From positions 1-32,423 of the forward strand of contig NZ_JAALFE010000029.1 in the NCBI RefSeq assembly GCF_011059185.1: DNA of 32,423 bases, given 5' to 3'. Numbering within the stretch: position 1 is the stretch's first letter; each line of letters begins with the position of its first letter. Origin of the DNA: Paragemmobacter kunshanensis (GTDB lineage: Bacteria; Pseudomonadota; Alphaproteobacteria; Rhodobacterales; Rhodobacteraceae). The notes under the pieces were generated by a model. The model saw nothing but the letters and a program-made list of their open reading frames with translations. It did not search any database and had not been told where the DNA came from. The position numbers and the translations under genes are program-made. Shown piece after piece: positions 1 to 10,167 of this stretch.

Positions 1-878
1 GCCGTCAACGCCATGATTTATATGCGAAATATCACGATTACGACAGCGAAATCAGCGACTTACTTGGAGAATGTGGGATGAAGAGGGTCCGGATTCCGTC
101 GGGGCCAGATGGCAAGAAGTTCTTCAATGCGGTCAGTTTCCACGGCATGAGTAATAGTTCAACTTCGGTCGAGAATCAACTTGTGAACATTTGGACGGCC
201 TTGGAAACAATTACTCCAGAGTCCTATTCTGGAAGCACCATCTCAAATGTTACACAGGGAGTTTTGCCATTCATTGGTCTAAACTATATGGCCAGGCTAA
301 CTCGTTGCCTTTTAGGAGATGTGCTGCGATGGAATCGCAAGTTTGCCTTTAAGTCAATCAAGTCAGCGGCTTGTGGAGACGGAGACAACCTTCTGCAGCA
401 GTTTTATTGTCTTTTGACTTTGGATGCCAACGAACCTCTGGTGGAGGTGCTGTTCGCCGAGATGAAGGACTTCCATCTATTGCGCCACAGAACTTTTTCA
501 TTTCTCAAAACGCTCAGATCCCGAGCGAAGACACTTAAGGCGATCGAAGATCATGAACGTAGGGTAAGTTGGCAGATTCATCGAATTTACCGCACTCGAA
601 ATCTAATCGTTCACCGAGGACAAGTGCCGAGCTATACAAAAACATTAGTTGTGAACGCACATGATTATTTCGATCAAGTTTTTGAATTAACCTGCGCGCT
701 CGGTGGCGGCGACCAGCATTACGATACCTACGAGGATATTTTCCGATATATGGAAATGCGTTACAGTAAGTACAAGGAAGACCTTTCAGTTAGCGAGGCT
801 ATCACGGCAACTGATGCCCGAGTTGTTCTCTGGACTCCACCTCAAGACATCGATCGAAAAATCATCCTACCCACTTGA
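1..878 (+). CDS. HEPN-domain protein, 3' part (5' end outside window)
   Basis: The reading frame is open from the left edge through the first ATG at 78, so that ATG is probably internal and the gene is cut by the window. About 290 residues are visible. A helix reading ENQLVNIWTALE and, near codon 174 counted from the ATG at 78 (597-614), the motif RNLIVH fit the HEPN fold: R-x4-H with a polar residue after Arg is the usual ribonuclease active site of this superfamily. The layout, HEPN at the C-terminus of a longer protein, resembles ApeA-type abortive-infection proteins, but the N-terminal part cannot be seen. Codon use is AT-rich and unlike genes further right, suggesting horizontal transfer. 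HEPN membership is fairly secure from the motif; a defence role is inference. Confidence 0.6.
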   Translation, partial: RQRHDLYAKYHDYDSEISDLLGECGMKRVRIPSGPDGKKFFNAVSFHGMSNSSTSVENQLVNIWTALETITPESYSGSTISNVTQGVLPFIGLNYMARLTRCLLGDVLRWNRKFAFKSIKSAACGDGDNLLQQFYCLLTLDANEPLVEVLFAEMKDFHLLRHRTFSFLKTLRSRAKTLKAIEDHERRVSWQIHRIYRTRNLIVHRGQVPSYTKTLVVNAHDYFDQVFELTCALGGGDQHYDTYEDIFRYMEMRYSKYKEDLSVSEAITATDARVVLWTPPQDIDRKIILPT

Positions 879-1359: not shown

Positions 1360-1692
1360 TCAGCTGTCGCCGCCGTTGCCGCTGTCACCGCCGTTGGAGT
1401 TGCCGCCGTTGCTGTCGCCCCCGTTGCTGTCGCCGCCATTGGAGTTGCCGCCGTTGCTGTCGCGGCCATTGCCGCCGCGATCGCGGCTGTCGCCGCCATT
1501 GCCGCGCAGGAGGCGGAGGAGATCGCCTTCGACCTGTGCGAGGTCGAGGAAGACCGGCTGGGCGTCGGTGCCGGCCGGGGCCGTGACGGGCGCGGTGAGC
1601 GCAGCCGGGGCGGGCAGGGCGAGGCCCGCTGCCTGGGCGCCAAGCGGGGCGAGGGCGAGGATGGCGGCGGCGGTCGTGGTGATCGTCTTCAT
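1360..1692 (-). CDS. Secreted Gly/Asn/Asp/Ser-repeat protein
   Basis: A 110-aa protein. The start at 1692 is chosen because AAGGAG lies 7-8 nt upstream and the N-terminus then forms a signal peptide, with a likely cleavage site after AQA near residue 21. Residues about 22-63 form an Ala/Pro-rich stretch and a short amphipathic segment (DLAQVEGDLLRLLRG). Residues 64-110 are a low-complexity tail of near-repeats NGGDS/NGGNS, built from 15-nt DNA units. A longer in-frame start at 1782 exists but has no such support. The gene is the last of the sigma/anti-sigma cluster and has its own ECF-type promoter at 1735-1763, so it is probably a target of the neighbouring sigma factor. Function is unknown; the Asp/Asn-rich tail might bind cations, which is speculation. 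I recognise no family. Confidence 0.7.
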   Translation of the reverse strand: MKTITTTAAAILALAPLGAQAAGLALPAPAALTAPVTAPAGTDAQPVFLDLAQVEGDLLRLLRGNGGDSRDRGGNGRDSNGGNSNGGDSNGGDSNGGNSNGGDSGNGGDS

Positions 1693-1734: not shown

Positions 1735-1763
1735 GGACAACGCGGGGGGCGGGAGGCTATTCC
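1735..1763 (-). promoter_or_regulatory. ECF-sigma promoter of the repeat-protein gene
   Basis: On the minus strand GGAAT (1763-1759), a 16-bp spacer and CGTTGTCC (1742-1735) match the elements and spacing of the promoter before the sigma gene at 3096-3124. GGAA-type -35 and CGTT-type -10 elements are typical of ECF sigma factors. The expected start point is some 35 nt upstream of the start codon at 1692. Confidence 0.75.
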
Positions 1764-1807
1764 CGCCCCGTGGCGGGATCACGCAGCCGTGATCGGCGGG
1801 GGCGCGA

Positions 1808-2560
1808 TCATTCCGCCCAGCCGCGCGCGATGAGGGCGGCCTCTTCCTCGGGCGAGAGGGCGAGGCCCGCGCCGCGCCGGTCGAGATAGGCGGAGAAATC
1901 CTGCAGGGCCGTGCCTTCGGCGGCGGCGAAGCCCGGTTCGGTGGTGCTGTCCCCGGGCAGGGTTTCGGCGAGGACCATCTCGATTTGCCAGCCCCCCTGG
2001 GGCAGGCGGCAGGCGAGGGCCAGGTCGATGCGGCGGGCGGCGCGGTCGAGGGATTCCACCTCGCGGCAGTGGCCGGTGGCGGTGGGCAGGGTGGAGAGGA
2101 TCACGGCTTCCGGCCCCGAGGTGGTGGCCAGGGTCGCGCCGGAGGGCAGGCCTTCCAGCGCGGTGGCGAGCGGGCTGGCCGCATCGAGCGGCCCCACGGC
2201 AAGGGTGGCGGGGGGCGCGGGCTGGACAAGGTAGAGCGCAAGGGCCAGCCCGGCGGCAAGGCCTAGGCCGCCCGCCAGGGCGGGGCGAAGGCGGCCCCGC
2301 GCGGGCGGGAAGGGCAGGATTGCCGCCGAGGGGGCGGGTTCGGCCAGCAGGGCCTGGATCGCGGGCGGCACGGGTTCGGAAAGGGGTGCGGCAAAGGCGC
2401 GGGCCAATGCGGCATTGGCCGCGAAGAGATCGTCGACATAGGCCTGATCGGCGGGGTGATCGGCCAGATGCATCACCACGGCGGCGGAATCTTCGGGGGA
2501 AAGTTCGCCATCCACGAAGGCGGCGAGGCGGGCGCGGTCCATTGCTTTGGGGGCGGTCAT
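1808..2560 (-). CDS. Membrane anti-sigma factor
   Basis: A 250-aa protein whose start codon overlaps the sigma stop as ATGA (2557-2560), a sign of translational coupling. Residues about 7-60 resemble the cytoplasmic anti-sigma domain (RLAAFVDGELSPEDSAAV..HLADHP), but the H-x3-C-x2-C zinc motif of ZAS proteins is absent. One transmembrane helix spans about residues 92-112. The C-terminal 135 residues would lie in the periplasm and could sense the inducing signal. Known anti-sigma factors of this layout hold the sigma at the membrane until a stress inactivates them. The role comes mainly from gene order and topology, so the specific signal cannot be assigned. Confidence 0.8.
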   Translation of the reverse strand: MTAPKAMDRARLAAFVDGELSPEDSAAVVMHLADHPADQAYVDDLFAANAALARAFAAPLSEPVPPAIQALLAEPAPSAAILPFPPARGRLRPALAGGLGLAAGLALALYLVQPAPPATLAVGPLDAASPLATALEGLPSGATLATTSGPEAVILSTLPTATGHCREVESLDRAARRIDLALACRLPQGGWQIEMVLAETLPGDSTTEPGFAAAEGTALQDFSAYLDRRGAGLALSPEEEAALIARGWAE

Positions 2561-3063
2561 TGACGGGGTCCTTGCGAGAGGCCAAGCTTGGGCAGGAGCG
2601 CCTCACGGGCGCGGGAGAGGCGGCTCATCACGGTGCCGACGGGGATGTCGAGGGTTTCGGCGGCCTCGCGGTAGCTGAGGCCTTCGATCGCGACGAGGGC
2701 GAGGACGGCGCGCTGCGGCTCGGGCAGGGTGGCCATGGCGGCGCGGGTGCGGGCCAGCATCATGCGGTCTTCCGGCAGGCTGGCGGCCTTGCCTTCGTCG
2801 CTGAGATCGACATCGGCGGGGTCGATGGCGGGGCCGTGCCGCATGTGGCGGCGGCGGTCGTCGATCCAGAGGGTCTGGATGATGCGATACATCCAGCTGT
2901 CCATCCTTGTGCCGGGCTGGAACTGGGCGGCGTTGCGCAGCGCCTTTTCGCAGGCGGCCTGCACCAGATCGTCGCCGTCCTGGCGGTTGCCCGTGAGGCC
3001 ATAGGCGAAGCGGCGCAGGCGGGGGACGAGTGCGACGAGGTCTTGTCGGAACAGGTCTGCCAT
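2557..3063 (-). CDS. ECF RNA polymerase sigma factor
   Basis: A 168-aa sigma-70 family protein of the ECF type, with only regions 2 and 4. Region 2 covers about residues 8-75 (GDDLVQAACEKALRNAAQF, then DSWMYRIIQTLWIDDRRR). Region 4 covers about 108-158 (LPEPQRAVLALVAIEGLSYREAAETLDIPVGTVMSRLSRARE, a helix-turn-helix). I start at the ATG at 3063, which has GGAAAGAG just upstream; a TTG five codons earlier would consume that ribosome-binding site. It heads a minus-strand cluster with an overlapping anti-sigma gene and a secreted protein. A promoter with ECF elements lies upstream and recurs before the secreted-protein gene, indicating autoregulation. I do not assign an ECF subgroup. Confidence 0.92.
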   Translation of the reverse strand: MADLFRQDLVALVPRLRRFAYGLTGNRQDGDDLVQAACEKALRNAAQFQPGTRMDSWMYRIIQTLWIDDRRRHMRHGPAIDPADVDLSDEGKAASLPEDRMMLARTRAAMATLPEPQRAVLALVAIEGLSYREAAETLDIPVGTVMSRLSRAREALLPKLGLSQGPRQ

Positions 3064-3095
3064 CGGGGCTCTTTCCAATTGGGGGTGATCCGGCA

Positions 3096-3124
3096 GGACA
3101 ACGCGGCGGGGCGGATTTCATTCC
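3096..3124 (-). promoter_or_regulatory. ECF-sigma autoregulatory promoter
   Basis: On the minus strand GGAAT (3124-3120), 16 bp, then CGTTGTCC (3103-3096). The same two elements with identical spacing precede the repeat-protein gene at 1735-1763, and the GC-rich spacers are also similar. This pairing is the main evidence that both are read by the sigma factor encoded here. Confidence 0.75.
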
Positions 3125-3322: not shown

Positions 3323-3472
3323 ATGACCGACAAGCCCGAGACCCAGACCGATATCCCCGTGCATGACGTGCTGGCCCTGACGGGCGGCGGCAGCCTTGCG
3401 CGCCTGATTCATCAGGGCGAGGTCTATGTCCTGCGCATCACCCGGCTGGGCAAGCTGATCCTGACCAAGTGA
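3323..3472 (+). CDS. hemP: Hemin uptake protein HemP
   Basis: A 49-aa protein ending LRITRLGKLILTK, the hallmark C-terminus of the HemP family (usually 45-80 aa), after an N-terminal stretch rich in acidic and polar residues. HemP proteins accompany haem-uptake and iron-storage genes and are thought to help expression or function of haem uptake; the mechanism is not settled. The ATG at 3323 has no good Shine-Dalgarno sequence; a GTG immediately before it is an alternative. The gene is followed after 7 nt by a bfd-type ferredoxin gene and then bacterioferritin, so the three form an iron operon. It lies divergent to the ECF sigma gene. Confidence 0.88.
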   Translation: MTDKPETQTDIPVHDVLALTGGGSLARLIHQGEVYVLRITRLGKLILTK

Positions 3473-3479
3473 GGCGCGC

Positions 3480-3767
3480 GTGATCGTCTGTCATTGCACC
3501 GGAATATCGGATCACGACATCCGCGCCGCGGTGGACTGGATGCGGCGGGCCGATCCCGAGACGATCATCACGCCCGGCAAGATCTATCACGCGCTGGGGC
3601 ATCGCGCCGATTGTGGCGGATGCATGCCGCTCTTTCTTGACACGATGCGAATGTGTGCCAGCCTTGAGGTACCCACGACACCGCCGGCCATTGGCGCGGT
3701 GTCCAGGCAGGCGATACCAATCCTCAGGCAAGGACGGCACCATGAAGGGCGATCCCAAGGTAATTGA
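3480..3767 (+). CDS. bfd: Bacterioferritin-associated [2Fe-2S] ferredoxin
   Basis: A 95-aa protein starting with GTG. The N-terminal 55 residues carry the BFD-type [2Fe-2S] ligands: C-x-C at residues 4-6 (VCHC) and C-x2-C near residues 45-48 (DCGGC). In well-studied bacteria Bfd reduces the ferric core of bacterioferritin so iron can be mobilised. The position between hemP and bfr fits exactly. The C-terminal 40 residues lack a recognisable domain and make it longer than the usual 60-75 aa; the end overlaps the bfr start by 26 nt, implying coupled translation. Confidence 0.85.
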
Positions 3768-4227
3768 ATTTCTCAACGCGGCGTTGCGGTCGGAACTGAC
3801 GGCGGTCAGCCAGTACTGGCTGCATTTCCGGCTGCAGGAGGATTGGGGGTTCGGCCATCTGGCCGCGAAATCGCGGGCGGAGAGCATCGAGGAGATGCAC
3901 CATGCCGACAAGCTGATCGCGCGGATCATCTTTCTGGAGGGCCATCCGAACCTGCAGAAGCTGGACCCGCTGCGCATCGGGCAGACCCTGCGCGAGACGC
4001 TGGAGGCGGATCTGGCCGCCGAGCATGAGGCGCGCAGCCTGTATATCGAGGCGCGGCGGCATTGCGACAGCGTGGGCGATTTCGTGACCCGCGCGCTGTT
4101 TGACGAGCTGATCGCGGATGAGGAGGGGCATATCGACTTCCTGGAAACGCAGTTGGGCCTGTTCGACCGGCTGGGCGAAGAGAAATACGGAATGCTGAAC
4201 GCAAAGCCTGCGGATCAGGCGGAATAG
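3742..4227 (+). CDS. bfr: Bacterioferritin
   Basis: A 161-aa iron-storage protein that assembles into a 24-subunit shell and oxidises and stores iron. All ferroxidase-centre residues expected from the E. coli protein are at the same numbers: Glu18, Glu51, His54, Glu94, Glu127 and His130. The haem-ligand Met52 is also present. The start at 3742 gives the conserved N-terminus [12 protein letters not shown]; the frame is open further upstream but that stretch is only the overlap with bfd. Being last in hemP-bfd-bfr, it is expected to rise when iron is plentiful, though no iron box was identified. Confidence 0.96.
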
Positions 4228-8143: not shown

Positions 8144-8205
8144 GGGCAGGGCTTGATGGTGCCTGCCAGGCAGGGACAGGGCTCGATGCCGCCTGCGGGG
8201 CAGGG
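8144..8205. repeat. Imperfect 30-bp tandem duplication
   Basis: Two copies of a unit of the form GRCAGGGCTYGATG..GCCTGC..GGCAGGG follow one another with a period of about 30 bp. They lie in the 187-bp gap between the convergent cckA and sulfotransferase genes. I see no terminator with a T-run there, only a short CCTGA/TCAGG hairpin at the cckA stop. Confidence 0.5.
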
Positions 8206-8236
8206 GGCGCAGAGCGGCCAGGCCCCGCGCCCGCCG

Positions 8237-8839
8237 TCAGGGGGCCAGGGGGCGGAGGGTTTCGTAGAGCGCGAAGTCGCGGGCGGCGGCCTTGCGCAGG
8301 CGGGCCTCGGTCGCGGGGGCAAGGTCCATCGGCGCGGCGGGCGAGACGTTCAGGCGCGGCAGGATGATCTCGCAATCCAGCCGGTCTTCGAGGAAATGGA
8401 CGAAGGTTTCGATCTCTTCATAGCGGAAGAGGTGATCGAGGCCCTTCTCGGCCTTGGGCTGCAGGAAGCGGGCCTGCGAGCCGACGGCGGCGAATTCCGG
8501 CTGGGGATCGTCGCACCAGGCGTTCACGAAGGCGTCGAAGGTCATGCCCTGGGTGGATTTCGCCGGATCGGTGACATCGTCGCGCTGGCGGTAGCGGAAC
8601 CAGGATCCCAGCCAATCGCGCGGTTCGCGCATCAGGGCCACCACGGTGAAGGGCTGCCCCGAAGTCACCTCGAGATAGGGGCCGATGAAGCGGTGGAAGC
8701 GCTGGACGGGCGTGTGTTTCAGCACCGGGGGGCGCTGGATCGACATGGTGGCCATCGATTCGAGCGCGGCCTCGATCGCGGTGGAGCCCGTCTTTGGCGT
8801 GGCCAGGATGGCCAGTCGTTGTTCCCAGAATACCAGCAT
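8237..8839 (-). CDS. Sulfotransferase-family protein
   Basis: A 200-aa protein. PKTGST at residues 15-20 is the loop binding the 5'-phosphosulfate of PAPS, and REPRDWLGSWFRYR (from about residue 71) matches the 3'-phosphate-binding motif with its Arg and Ser. It should therefore transfer sulfate from PAPS, or it may be a divergent member; the acceptor cannot be predicted. The start ATG at 8839 has AGGA six bases upstream. The gene stands alone between convergent cckA and divergent recA. Such small orphan sulfotransferase-like proteins often have unknown substrates; nodulation or polysaccharide genes are absent nearby. Confidence 0.8.
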   Translation of the reverse strand: MLVFWEQRLAILATPKTGSTAIEAALESMATMSIQRPPVLKHTPVQRFHRFIGPYLEVTSGQPFTVVALMREPRDWLGSWFRYRQRDDVTDPAKSTQGMTFDAFVNAWCDDPQPEFAAVGSQARFLQPKAEKGLDHLFRYEEIETFVHFLEDRLDCEIILPRLNVSPAAPMDLAPATEARLRKAAARDFALYETLRPLAP

Positions 8840-8995
8840 GACACGTCCTGCAGCGCCGGGCGCGGCCTCTGCGCGCCCCCCCTTCCGCGCCTTCTACACA
8901 AGGTCGCCGCAATAGGCGAGGGGCAGCCGCAGGCACCGGGCCGCGTAAACCGGGCCTTAACCTTTGCCGCGCAGGATGGGGATGTTCGAATTTGG

Positions 8996-9024
8996 TTGAA
9001 ATGTTCCCTATTTGTGCTCATAAG
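8996..9024 (+). promoter_or_regulatory. recA sigma-70 promoter
   Basis: TTGAAA (8996-9001), a 17-bp spacer and CATAAG (9019-9024) form a good -35/-10 pair. The predicted start falls at about 9031, inside the SOS box. Confidence 0.65.
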
Positions 9025-9029
9025 GATGA

Positions 9030-9044
9030 GAACACTTGGGGAAC
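9030..9044 (+). promoter_or_regulatory. LexA (SOS) box of recA
   Basis: GAAC-N7-GAAC is the exact complement of GTTC-N7-GTTC, the direct-repeat LexA site known from alphaproteobacteria. It lies just after the -10 element, where bound LexA would block transcription start. Confidence 0.85.
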
Positions 9045-9093
9045 AAGCGCAGCAATTGCCGCCCGGTCGCGGCTGTGAAATAAGGAGACGGAC

Positions 9094-10167
<1,074 letters not shown>

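Follow-up and report, generated by a model that had tools for sequence, protein, structure and literature searches.

Two motifs of the form GGAAT-N16-CGTTGTCC stand before an ECF sigma gene and a small repeat-protein gene in a 32,423-nucleotide stretch of Paragemmobacter kunshanensis DNA (the window), which raises the question of whether one sigma factor drives both genes and what else it may control. The original prediction was an autoregulated ECF circuit with identical promoters before the sigma gene and a secreted-protein gene downstream. The reading that we reach, with a probability of about 0.86, is an RpoE6-type (ECF26) autoregulated envelope-signalling circuit whose units are the sigma/anti-sigma operon, the repeat protein and an S8 subtilase on another contig of the genome, C43.

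Two promoter sites and the genes behind them

Pattern searches of the window and the genome confirmed both sites on the minus strand with the predicted N16 spacing. The ECF26-type promoter of the sigma/anti-sigma operon occupies 3096-3124 (GGAATGAAATCCGCCCCGCCGCGTTGTCC, 3124-3096), with the -35 element GGAATG at 3124-3119, the -10 element CGTTGT at 3103-3098 and 16 nucleotides between GGAAT and CGTT. The promoter of the small repeat gene, of the same type, occupies 1735-1763 (GGAATAGCCTCCCGCCCCCCGCGTTGTCC, 1763-1735), with GGAATA at 1763-1758, N16 and CGTTGT at 1742-1737, and its position is matched in orthologs. The -10 element ends 32 nt before the ATG of the sigma gene (3063) and 42 nt before that of the small gene (1692). 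The two promoters are identical, as had been claimed, in GGAAT, CGTTGTCC and spacing, but not in spacer sequence. The genome-wide scan proposed along with the claim gave two exact matches in 4,464,082 bases (4.46 Mb), both of them the window sites, and none for a reversed-pattern control. With spacings of N14-18 the window itself yielded two matches, and 100 dinucleotide-preserving shuffles of it yielded none.

The sigma gene (2557-3063, minus strand, ATG start) encodes a 168-aa RpoE6-like ECF sigma factor. Sigma70_r2 and Sigma70_r4_2 both score above the Pfam cut-off, and NCBIfam sigma70-ECF scores 77 bits (cut-off 42.9); domains 2 and 4 alone in a short protein are what defines the ECF class (group IV). 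The protein is 46.5% identical to the sigma factor encoded beside an S8 gene on pSymA of Sinorhizobium meliloti 1021 and 37.0% identical to the EcfG-like sigma factor of its own genome. RpoE6 is the nearest characterised relative among the sequences compared. ECF sigma factors of the RpoE6 type are found across many Alphaproteobacteria.

The original prediction overlooked the second gene of the operon (1808-2560, minus strand), which overlaps the sigma gene by 4 bases and encodes a probable membrane anti-sigma factor of 250 aa. Since this gene lies between the two promoters, the placement of the second site had to be amended; it sits between the anti-sigma gene and the small gene. The protein matches Pfam zf-HC2 weakly (23.8 bits, cut-off 22.2) and lacks the zinc-binding class I anti-sigma motif Hx3Cx2C; class I domains without zinc are also described in the relevant part of PMC7406223. 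Hydropathy gives one strongly hydrophobic segment at about residues 94-112. The AlphaFold2 model (pLDDT 84.7, pTM 0.56) shows a helical domain at the N-terminus and, beyond a linker predicted with little confidence, a four-strand C-terminal domain, which we infer to be periplasmic. By computation, this is the ECF26 anti-sigma layout of N-terminal domain, one transmembrane segment and periplasmic C-terminal domain. A fold search of the model against the PDB returned 993 matches at E<=10 and none at E<=0.001.

Two cysteines of the C-terminal domain, C165 and C184, are invariant across 29 aligned sequences. A cysteine pair 18-19 residues apart near this position was present in 30 of 30 orthologs scanned, and the S. 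meliloti and Rhizobium laguerreae counterparts carry one with a separation of 17-18. The model places C165 and C184 on strands consecutive in sequence (164-172 and 177-185). The pair is a possible sensor; it lends appeal to a redox or disulfide-dependent signal, yet its role may be purely structural. It appears to be undescribed so far.

The small gene (1360-1692, minus strand) is an open reading frame for a 110-aa protein with a signal-peptide-like N-terminus (by hydropathy and by eye), a short core, AQPVFLDL, and NGGDS/NGGNS repeats; similar ORFs have NGGDS or SNSS tails. It is probably secreted, and it has no family in Pfam or NCBIfam at E up to 1. Directly 3' of it, at 1311-1337 on the minus strand, the sequence reads as a terminator-like hairpin, GGCCGGCCCC...GGGGCCGGCC, followed by TTTT.

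Conservation of the sites and a likely third target

Relatives of the sigma factor were sought in 61 genomes; 45 yielded a match with E no higher than 1e-10, in many cases a paralog. A contig search gave 76 loci. The site counts use the 30 closest (at least 64% identity: L100-L127, L155 and L159) and set aside the other 46; with the window, L065 and L069 they make up 33 sigma loci. The 30 come from Tabrizicola sp. TH137, 'Rhodobacter ruber', Gemmobacter, Cypionkella, Pseudorhodobacter, Rhodovulum, Ruegeria and Paracoccus, among others, and include many metagenome bins. Because several loci are closely related (L065 and L102 are nearly the same), the counts that follow are not independent events.

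The pattern GGAATN-N14-16-CGTT stands upstream of the sigma gene in 28 of the 33 loci and upstream of a subtilase gene in 21 of 27 stretches, where mononucleotide shuffles lead one to expect 0.03 and 0.07. The spacing before sigma is N16 in 23 and N17 in 5 loci, and before the subtilase N16 in 14 and N17 in 7; among all remaining spacings between 8 and 25, each gene had a single stray (N12 and N23). Left free by the search, the second T of CGTTnT is found in all N16 sites (23/23 and 14/14) and in 11 of the 12 N17 sites. GGAAC, GGAAA and the reversed motif occur in none of the 33 sigma and none of the 27 subtilase segments, and GGAAG replaces GGAAT in none of the former and one of the latter. 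Permuted motifs matched 0.11 and 0.08 segments on average; their maxima, 13 and 6, perhaps come from permutations that overlap the true site.

The strict site is missing before five of the 33 sigma genes (L069, L123, L125, L126 and L127) and six of the 27 subtilase genes (L110, L112, L123 and L125-L127). L123 and L125-L127 are diverged loci, their sigma factors being 64-67% identical. Among the counted subtilase sites, that of L155, GGAATT, is weak and lies some 240 nt ahead of where the gene is estimated to start. In distant loci, with sigma identities of about 40-52%, a relaxed pattern gave no match in L072, L073, L074, L096, L097 and L099, one in L071 and two in L070; L072, L096, L097 and L099 have both the sigma gene and a subtilase, yet no such site. 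L095, L098 and L176 have several sites each.

Twelve of the 33 loci contain a complete ORF with a hydrophobic start and a tail rich in Gly, Asn, Ser and Asp, and the promoter before it is exact in 11 of these 12, with one mismatch in L103. The sites of L109 and L159 were counted by direct reading, the script having picked an earlier ATG. L118 and L120 show a tail of this kind as well, where the contig ends or close to it. A subtilase accompanies the repeat gene in 10 of the 12 loci, C43 being counted for the window's genome. The comparison of orthologous loci proposed as a check bears out conservation of both sites.

The tails are NGGDS within the window's genus and SNSS elsewhere. Proteins with the two tails are likely, though not proven, relatives, judging by where the genes lie, how far the promoter stands from them and a short core that by eye reads V-[QE]-x-V-x-F or similar. 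An SN-repeat ORF has a promoter of this type 40 nt upstream in R. laguerreae (L098) and 45 nt upstream on pSymA of S. meliloti 1021 (L176). On pSymA the (NSSS)n ORF, with a signal-peptide-like start, directly follows ecfR6, a position from which we infer that it is SMa0146. The small gene is prone to mis-annotation, as S. meliloti LMB1 shows: in L095 the annotated CDS 1793-2185, likely a mis-annotation, runs on the strand opposite the promoter-bearing (NSSS)n ORF. Judged by these features, the small low-complexity protein, which is probably secreted, seems to be a part of the mini-regulon in Rhodobacterales and Rhizobiaceae that has been overlooked and that recurs, though not universally (12/33). 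In the open PMC literature, searches found SMa0146 in PMC6180224 only and no description of the repeat protein there or elsewhere; the protein appears undescribed. Another small low-complexity protein (SAPSGGG/SR-rich) is encoded in L106 (5427-5774, minus strand), divergent from the sigma gene and with a site upstream.

The motif had also been offered as a ready-made tool for finding the rest of the regulon. The exact motif leads to nothing beyond the two sites, whereas a relaxed motif combined with orthologs reveals the S8 subtilase gene at 26271-27665 of contig C43, a likely third target of the sigma factor by its sequence context. Its upstream site is imperfect (GGAAT-N17-CGTTATTGTCC), so its recognition needs both the relaxed motif and the orthologs. 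The protein is 63-72% identical to the subtilases of seven congeners; it has a signal-peptide-like start, a low-complexity stretch of polar residues and an S8 domain whose D203, H235 and S402 fall in the family's DTG, HGT and GTS motifs. In the genus (19 genomes), the subtilase is present in 7 of 8 genomes with a sigma ortholog versus 1 of 11 without (one-sided Fisher p = 0.0012). The exception, G001 (83% complete), has a subtilase contig that starts inside the small gene, so any sigma gene beyond it would go unseen.

The arrangement of the genes varies among the congeners. In five of the seven with a sigma ortholog (L064-L068), the small gene is followed by a convergent S8 subtilase; in L063, which has no small gene, the subtilase faces the anti-sigma gene. 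Where targets are missing, their sites are missing too: the locus L100/L063 lacks the small gene and its site and keeps the other two sites, and L069 has no small gene, no subtilase match in its genome and an altered -10 element before its own sigma gene. In the window's genome, the sigma locus and the C43 subtilase both lie near contig ends beside foreign-looking DNA (GC measured on the window side). A simple insertion splitting the cluster was considered but not accepted, as the subtilase has other sequence upstream than in the congeners; a rearrangement may have taken place. At the C43 end (L077), the subtilase is followed by a foreign-looking ORF at 8168-9403 with no Pfam match at 0.01 and no PADLOC match at 0.1. 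At the start of the window's contig, a truncated ORF (3-878, plus strand) matches PADLOC ApeA over residues 48-222 (E 2.7e-9), with a GC content of 44-47% around it and 63-75% in the next 3 kb; it is possibly a piece of a defence island.

Known systems and competing readings

The closest characterised system is RpoE6-EcfR6 of S. meliloti (group ECF26). According to the sections of PMC6180224 drawn on here, RpoE6 overexpression raises 40 genes, including rpoE6-ecfR6, SMa0142 (a serine protease), SMa0139, SMa0146 and SMa0148; the cross-species ECF26 consensus is -35 GGAATA and -10 GT; and a divergent serine protease is widely conserved among ECF26 systems. An excerpt of PMC10880074 adds that RpoE6 strongly activates a heterologous ECF26 promoter. 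We located the printed SMa0142, SMa0148 and ecfR6 promoters on pSymA before S8, DUF6065-like and anti-sigma ORFs. From the published response and these matching promoters, the window sites belong to a promoter class that answers RpoE6 in a relative. The predicted autoregulated circuit driving the repeat protein is therefore supported both by the ortholog sites and by RpoE6 overexpression in S. meliloti.

The likeness extends to the parts. Besides the 46.5% identity of the sigma factors, EcfR6 has one transmembrane domain (PMC6180224, in part) and a C-terminal cysteine pair, the neighbouring S8 protease is 44% identical and has the same promoter type, and a promoter of this kind precedes the low-complexity (NSSS)n ORF right after the anti-sigma gene. 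The window's family has GGAATA/G-N16/17-CGTTnT, in agreement with the ECF26 consensus, and an S8 gene nearby in 27 of 34 stretches, preceded by a site in 21, as in rpoE6-type ECF26 loci. The systems differ in the orientation of the subtilase gene, which is divergent from sigma in S. meliloti, convergent in the window's congeners and on another contig in the window's genome, and in the repeat tail (NSSS against NGGDS). S. meliloti has extra RpoE6 targets, SMa0148 (DUF6065 by position and record name) and the glyoxylase SMa0139, and its SMa0148 and (NSSS)n sites read CGTTAC rather than CGTTnT. Its autoregulatory site of the RpoE6 type is internal to rpoE6 and precedes ecfR6, while the site listed for rpoE6 itself looks unlike it; upstream autoregulation is thus not identical there. 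The excerpt of PMC8175422 gives SMa0142 as predicted cytoplasmic though termed extracellular, and its overexpression as causing no fixation defect.

Other systems are less close. RpoE1/RpoE4 (ECF26), likened here by published description only, share the -35 element GGAATA at the rpoE1 and rpoE4 operons (PMC6180224, in part); they differ in responding to sulfite and driving sorT-sorU-azu2 (PMC3511301, in part). In Caulobacter, as far as the cited part of PMC13171946 goes, the ECF sigma gene sigV adjoins a gene for a small secreted protein, CaBP, whose promoter SigV activates; this is an EF-hand protein, no anti-sigma factor is identified there, and the promoter has GGAAA with a 13-nt spacer. 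As judged from sequence, the window's circuit is ordinary in kind (ECF26) and well supported, its sigma type and promoter being already known.

The sites could instead serve chiefly the general stress sigma factor EcfG (ECF15), with the local sigma factor in a minor role. The EcfG promoter, with -35 GGAAC and -10 CGTT, has a similar layout and is close to the window sites, and the genome carries PhyR-like and EcfG-like genes (named by eye, from resemblance) back to back around GGAACCAAACG...CGTTTGGT. Of the 40 genes that RpoE6 induces in S. meliloti, 27 fall within the regulon of RpoE2, a general stress sigma factor, on overexpression (PMC6180224, in part). Against this, the conserved sites have T as the fifth -35 base, and the absence of GGAAC from all 33 sigma and 27 subtilase segments does not fit ECF15. 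EcfG is moreover controlled by NepR/PhyR (PMC8103513, in part), whereas the partner here is a membrane-type anti-sigma factor. The targets also track the local sigma gene: G010, G013 and G016 have EcfG-like loci (L028-L030) but neither a sigma ortholog nor the subtilase. From the fifth -35 base and this co-occurrence, EcfG is unlikely to be the main user of the sites, and we give that reading little credence.

A conserved two-part motif at fixed spacing would also fit sites that are not promoters but operators, bound by a regulator. This reading seems to us still less probable, as the counted sites lie upstream of a gene and are oriented toward it, neither half repeats the other in inverted form, the two stand 16/17 nt apart and the -35 element is that of the ECF26 consensus, GGAATA/GT, printed in PMC6180224 (in part). 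Coincidence of chance or composition might be suspected from the 60 matches of the relaxed motif in this genome (13 for its reverse), 32 of the 38 examined looking coding; the exact pattern has only its two matches, both in the window, and chance is contradicted by site conservation far above that in shuffles, which makes it the least credible reading of all.

The proposed circuit and its wider regulon

In the RpoE6-type circuit, the single-pass anti-sigma factor would tether the sigma factor at the membrane until a periplasmic-side signal inactivates it and releases the sigma factor. The free sigma factor would guide RNA polymerase to GGAATA-N16/17-CGTTnT promoters. Induction of the sigma/anti-sigma operon would give positive feedback, with accumulating anti-sigma factor as a brake, while the small repeat protein and the C43 subtilase would be induced, probably secreted, and may cooperate outside the cell. 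The sites exist and are conserved, and the subtilase co-occurs with the sigma gene; induction by the sigma factor would hold by analogy with the S. meliloti counterpart. A bolder version, which we regard as doubtful, makes the recurrent ECF26 core a module of extracellular protease and repeat protein, co-induced because they act together, in which the repeat protein would be substrate, scaffold or inhibitor and the anti-sigma factor would sense its state, or periplasmic redox, via the cysteine pair.

PMC6180224 reports that microarrays did not succeed in assigning RpoE6 a role in S. meliloti. The comparison here defines the promoter sharply and brings out a set of sigma/anti-sigma, subtilase and low-complexity small protein that recurs in Rhodobacterales and Rhizobiaceae; with the invariant cysteine pair as a testable sensor, these make the signal and function of the circuit approachable. 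We found no description of the recurrent element of the circuit in the open PMC literature searched.

Three of the 60 matches of the relaxed motif, GGAATN{15,17}CGTT, in this genome are the known sites. From the other 57 we examined 38, namely all 37 with N16 or N17 and one with N15, leaving 19 with N15, and judged coding character by codon-position GC. One coding-looking match, C1:166540 (GGAATA...CGTTCTG), has a promoter-like layout before a metallophosphoesterase-like ORF. A search for GGAATAN{14,16}CGTTCTG in 21 genomes, 13 of them in the genus (G017 and G018 excepted), gave within the genus one more match in G005, in a stretch without a metallophosphoesterase-like gene, and a site in G002 and G003 that resembles the coding one on C85. 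Of the six non-coding matches, L205 and L208 have a possible downstream ORF but no T after CGTT, and the other four have no ORF by script. With 38 of the 57 examined, no further regulon member was accepted in this genome and none strictly excluded.

Across the genus, 14 of the 18 matches of GGAATN{15,18}CGTTGTC in eight sigma-bearing genomes, this one included, fall at the sigma locus, and 11 other genus genomes contain 14 matches; the number of genome-wide matches alone does not separate sigma-bearing from other congeners. Among the matches listed for the relatives, the motif stands before a DUF6065 gene in L110 (by Pfam), L098 (by record) and L176 (by likeness), a gene for an RTX-repeat protein in L118 (by Pfam) and in L109, L117 and L155 (by likeness), an alpha/beta hydrolase-like gene in L119 (below the Pfam cut-off) and in L112, L121 and L122 (by likeness), a permease gene of the sodium:sulfate symporter kind in L112, and a glycerate kinase gene in L112 (by Pfam) and L098 (by record). 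With such varied further targets, the regulons seem to vary around a recurrent core. The RTX-repeat protein, of 330-333 aa, is encoded at 3349-4338 in L118 and at 8754-9752 (minus strand) in L117 behind an ECF26-type promoter; its N-terminal half, tested for L118, matches no Pfam family.

Divergent from the sigma operon, the window contains hemP, BFD-like and ferritin-like genes at 3323-4227 on the plus strand. The strict inverted-repeat pattern GTGATTTTGTC...GACAAAATCAC has no match in L066, and its copy in the window looks degenerate by eye. The congeners L063-L065 carry this repeat, or one close to it, upstream of the sigma gene, and it is perhaps the site of an iron regulator.
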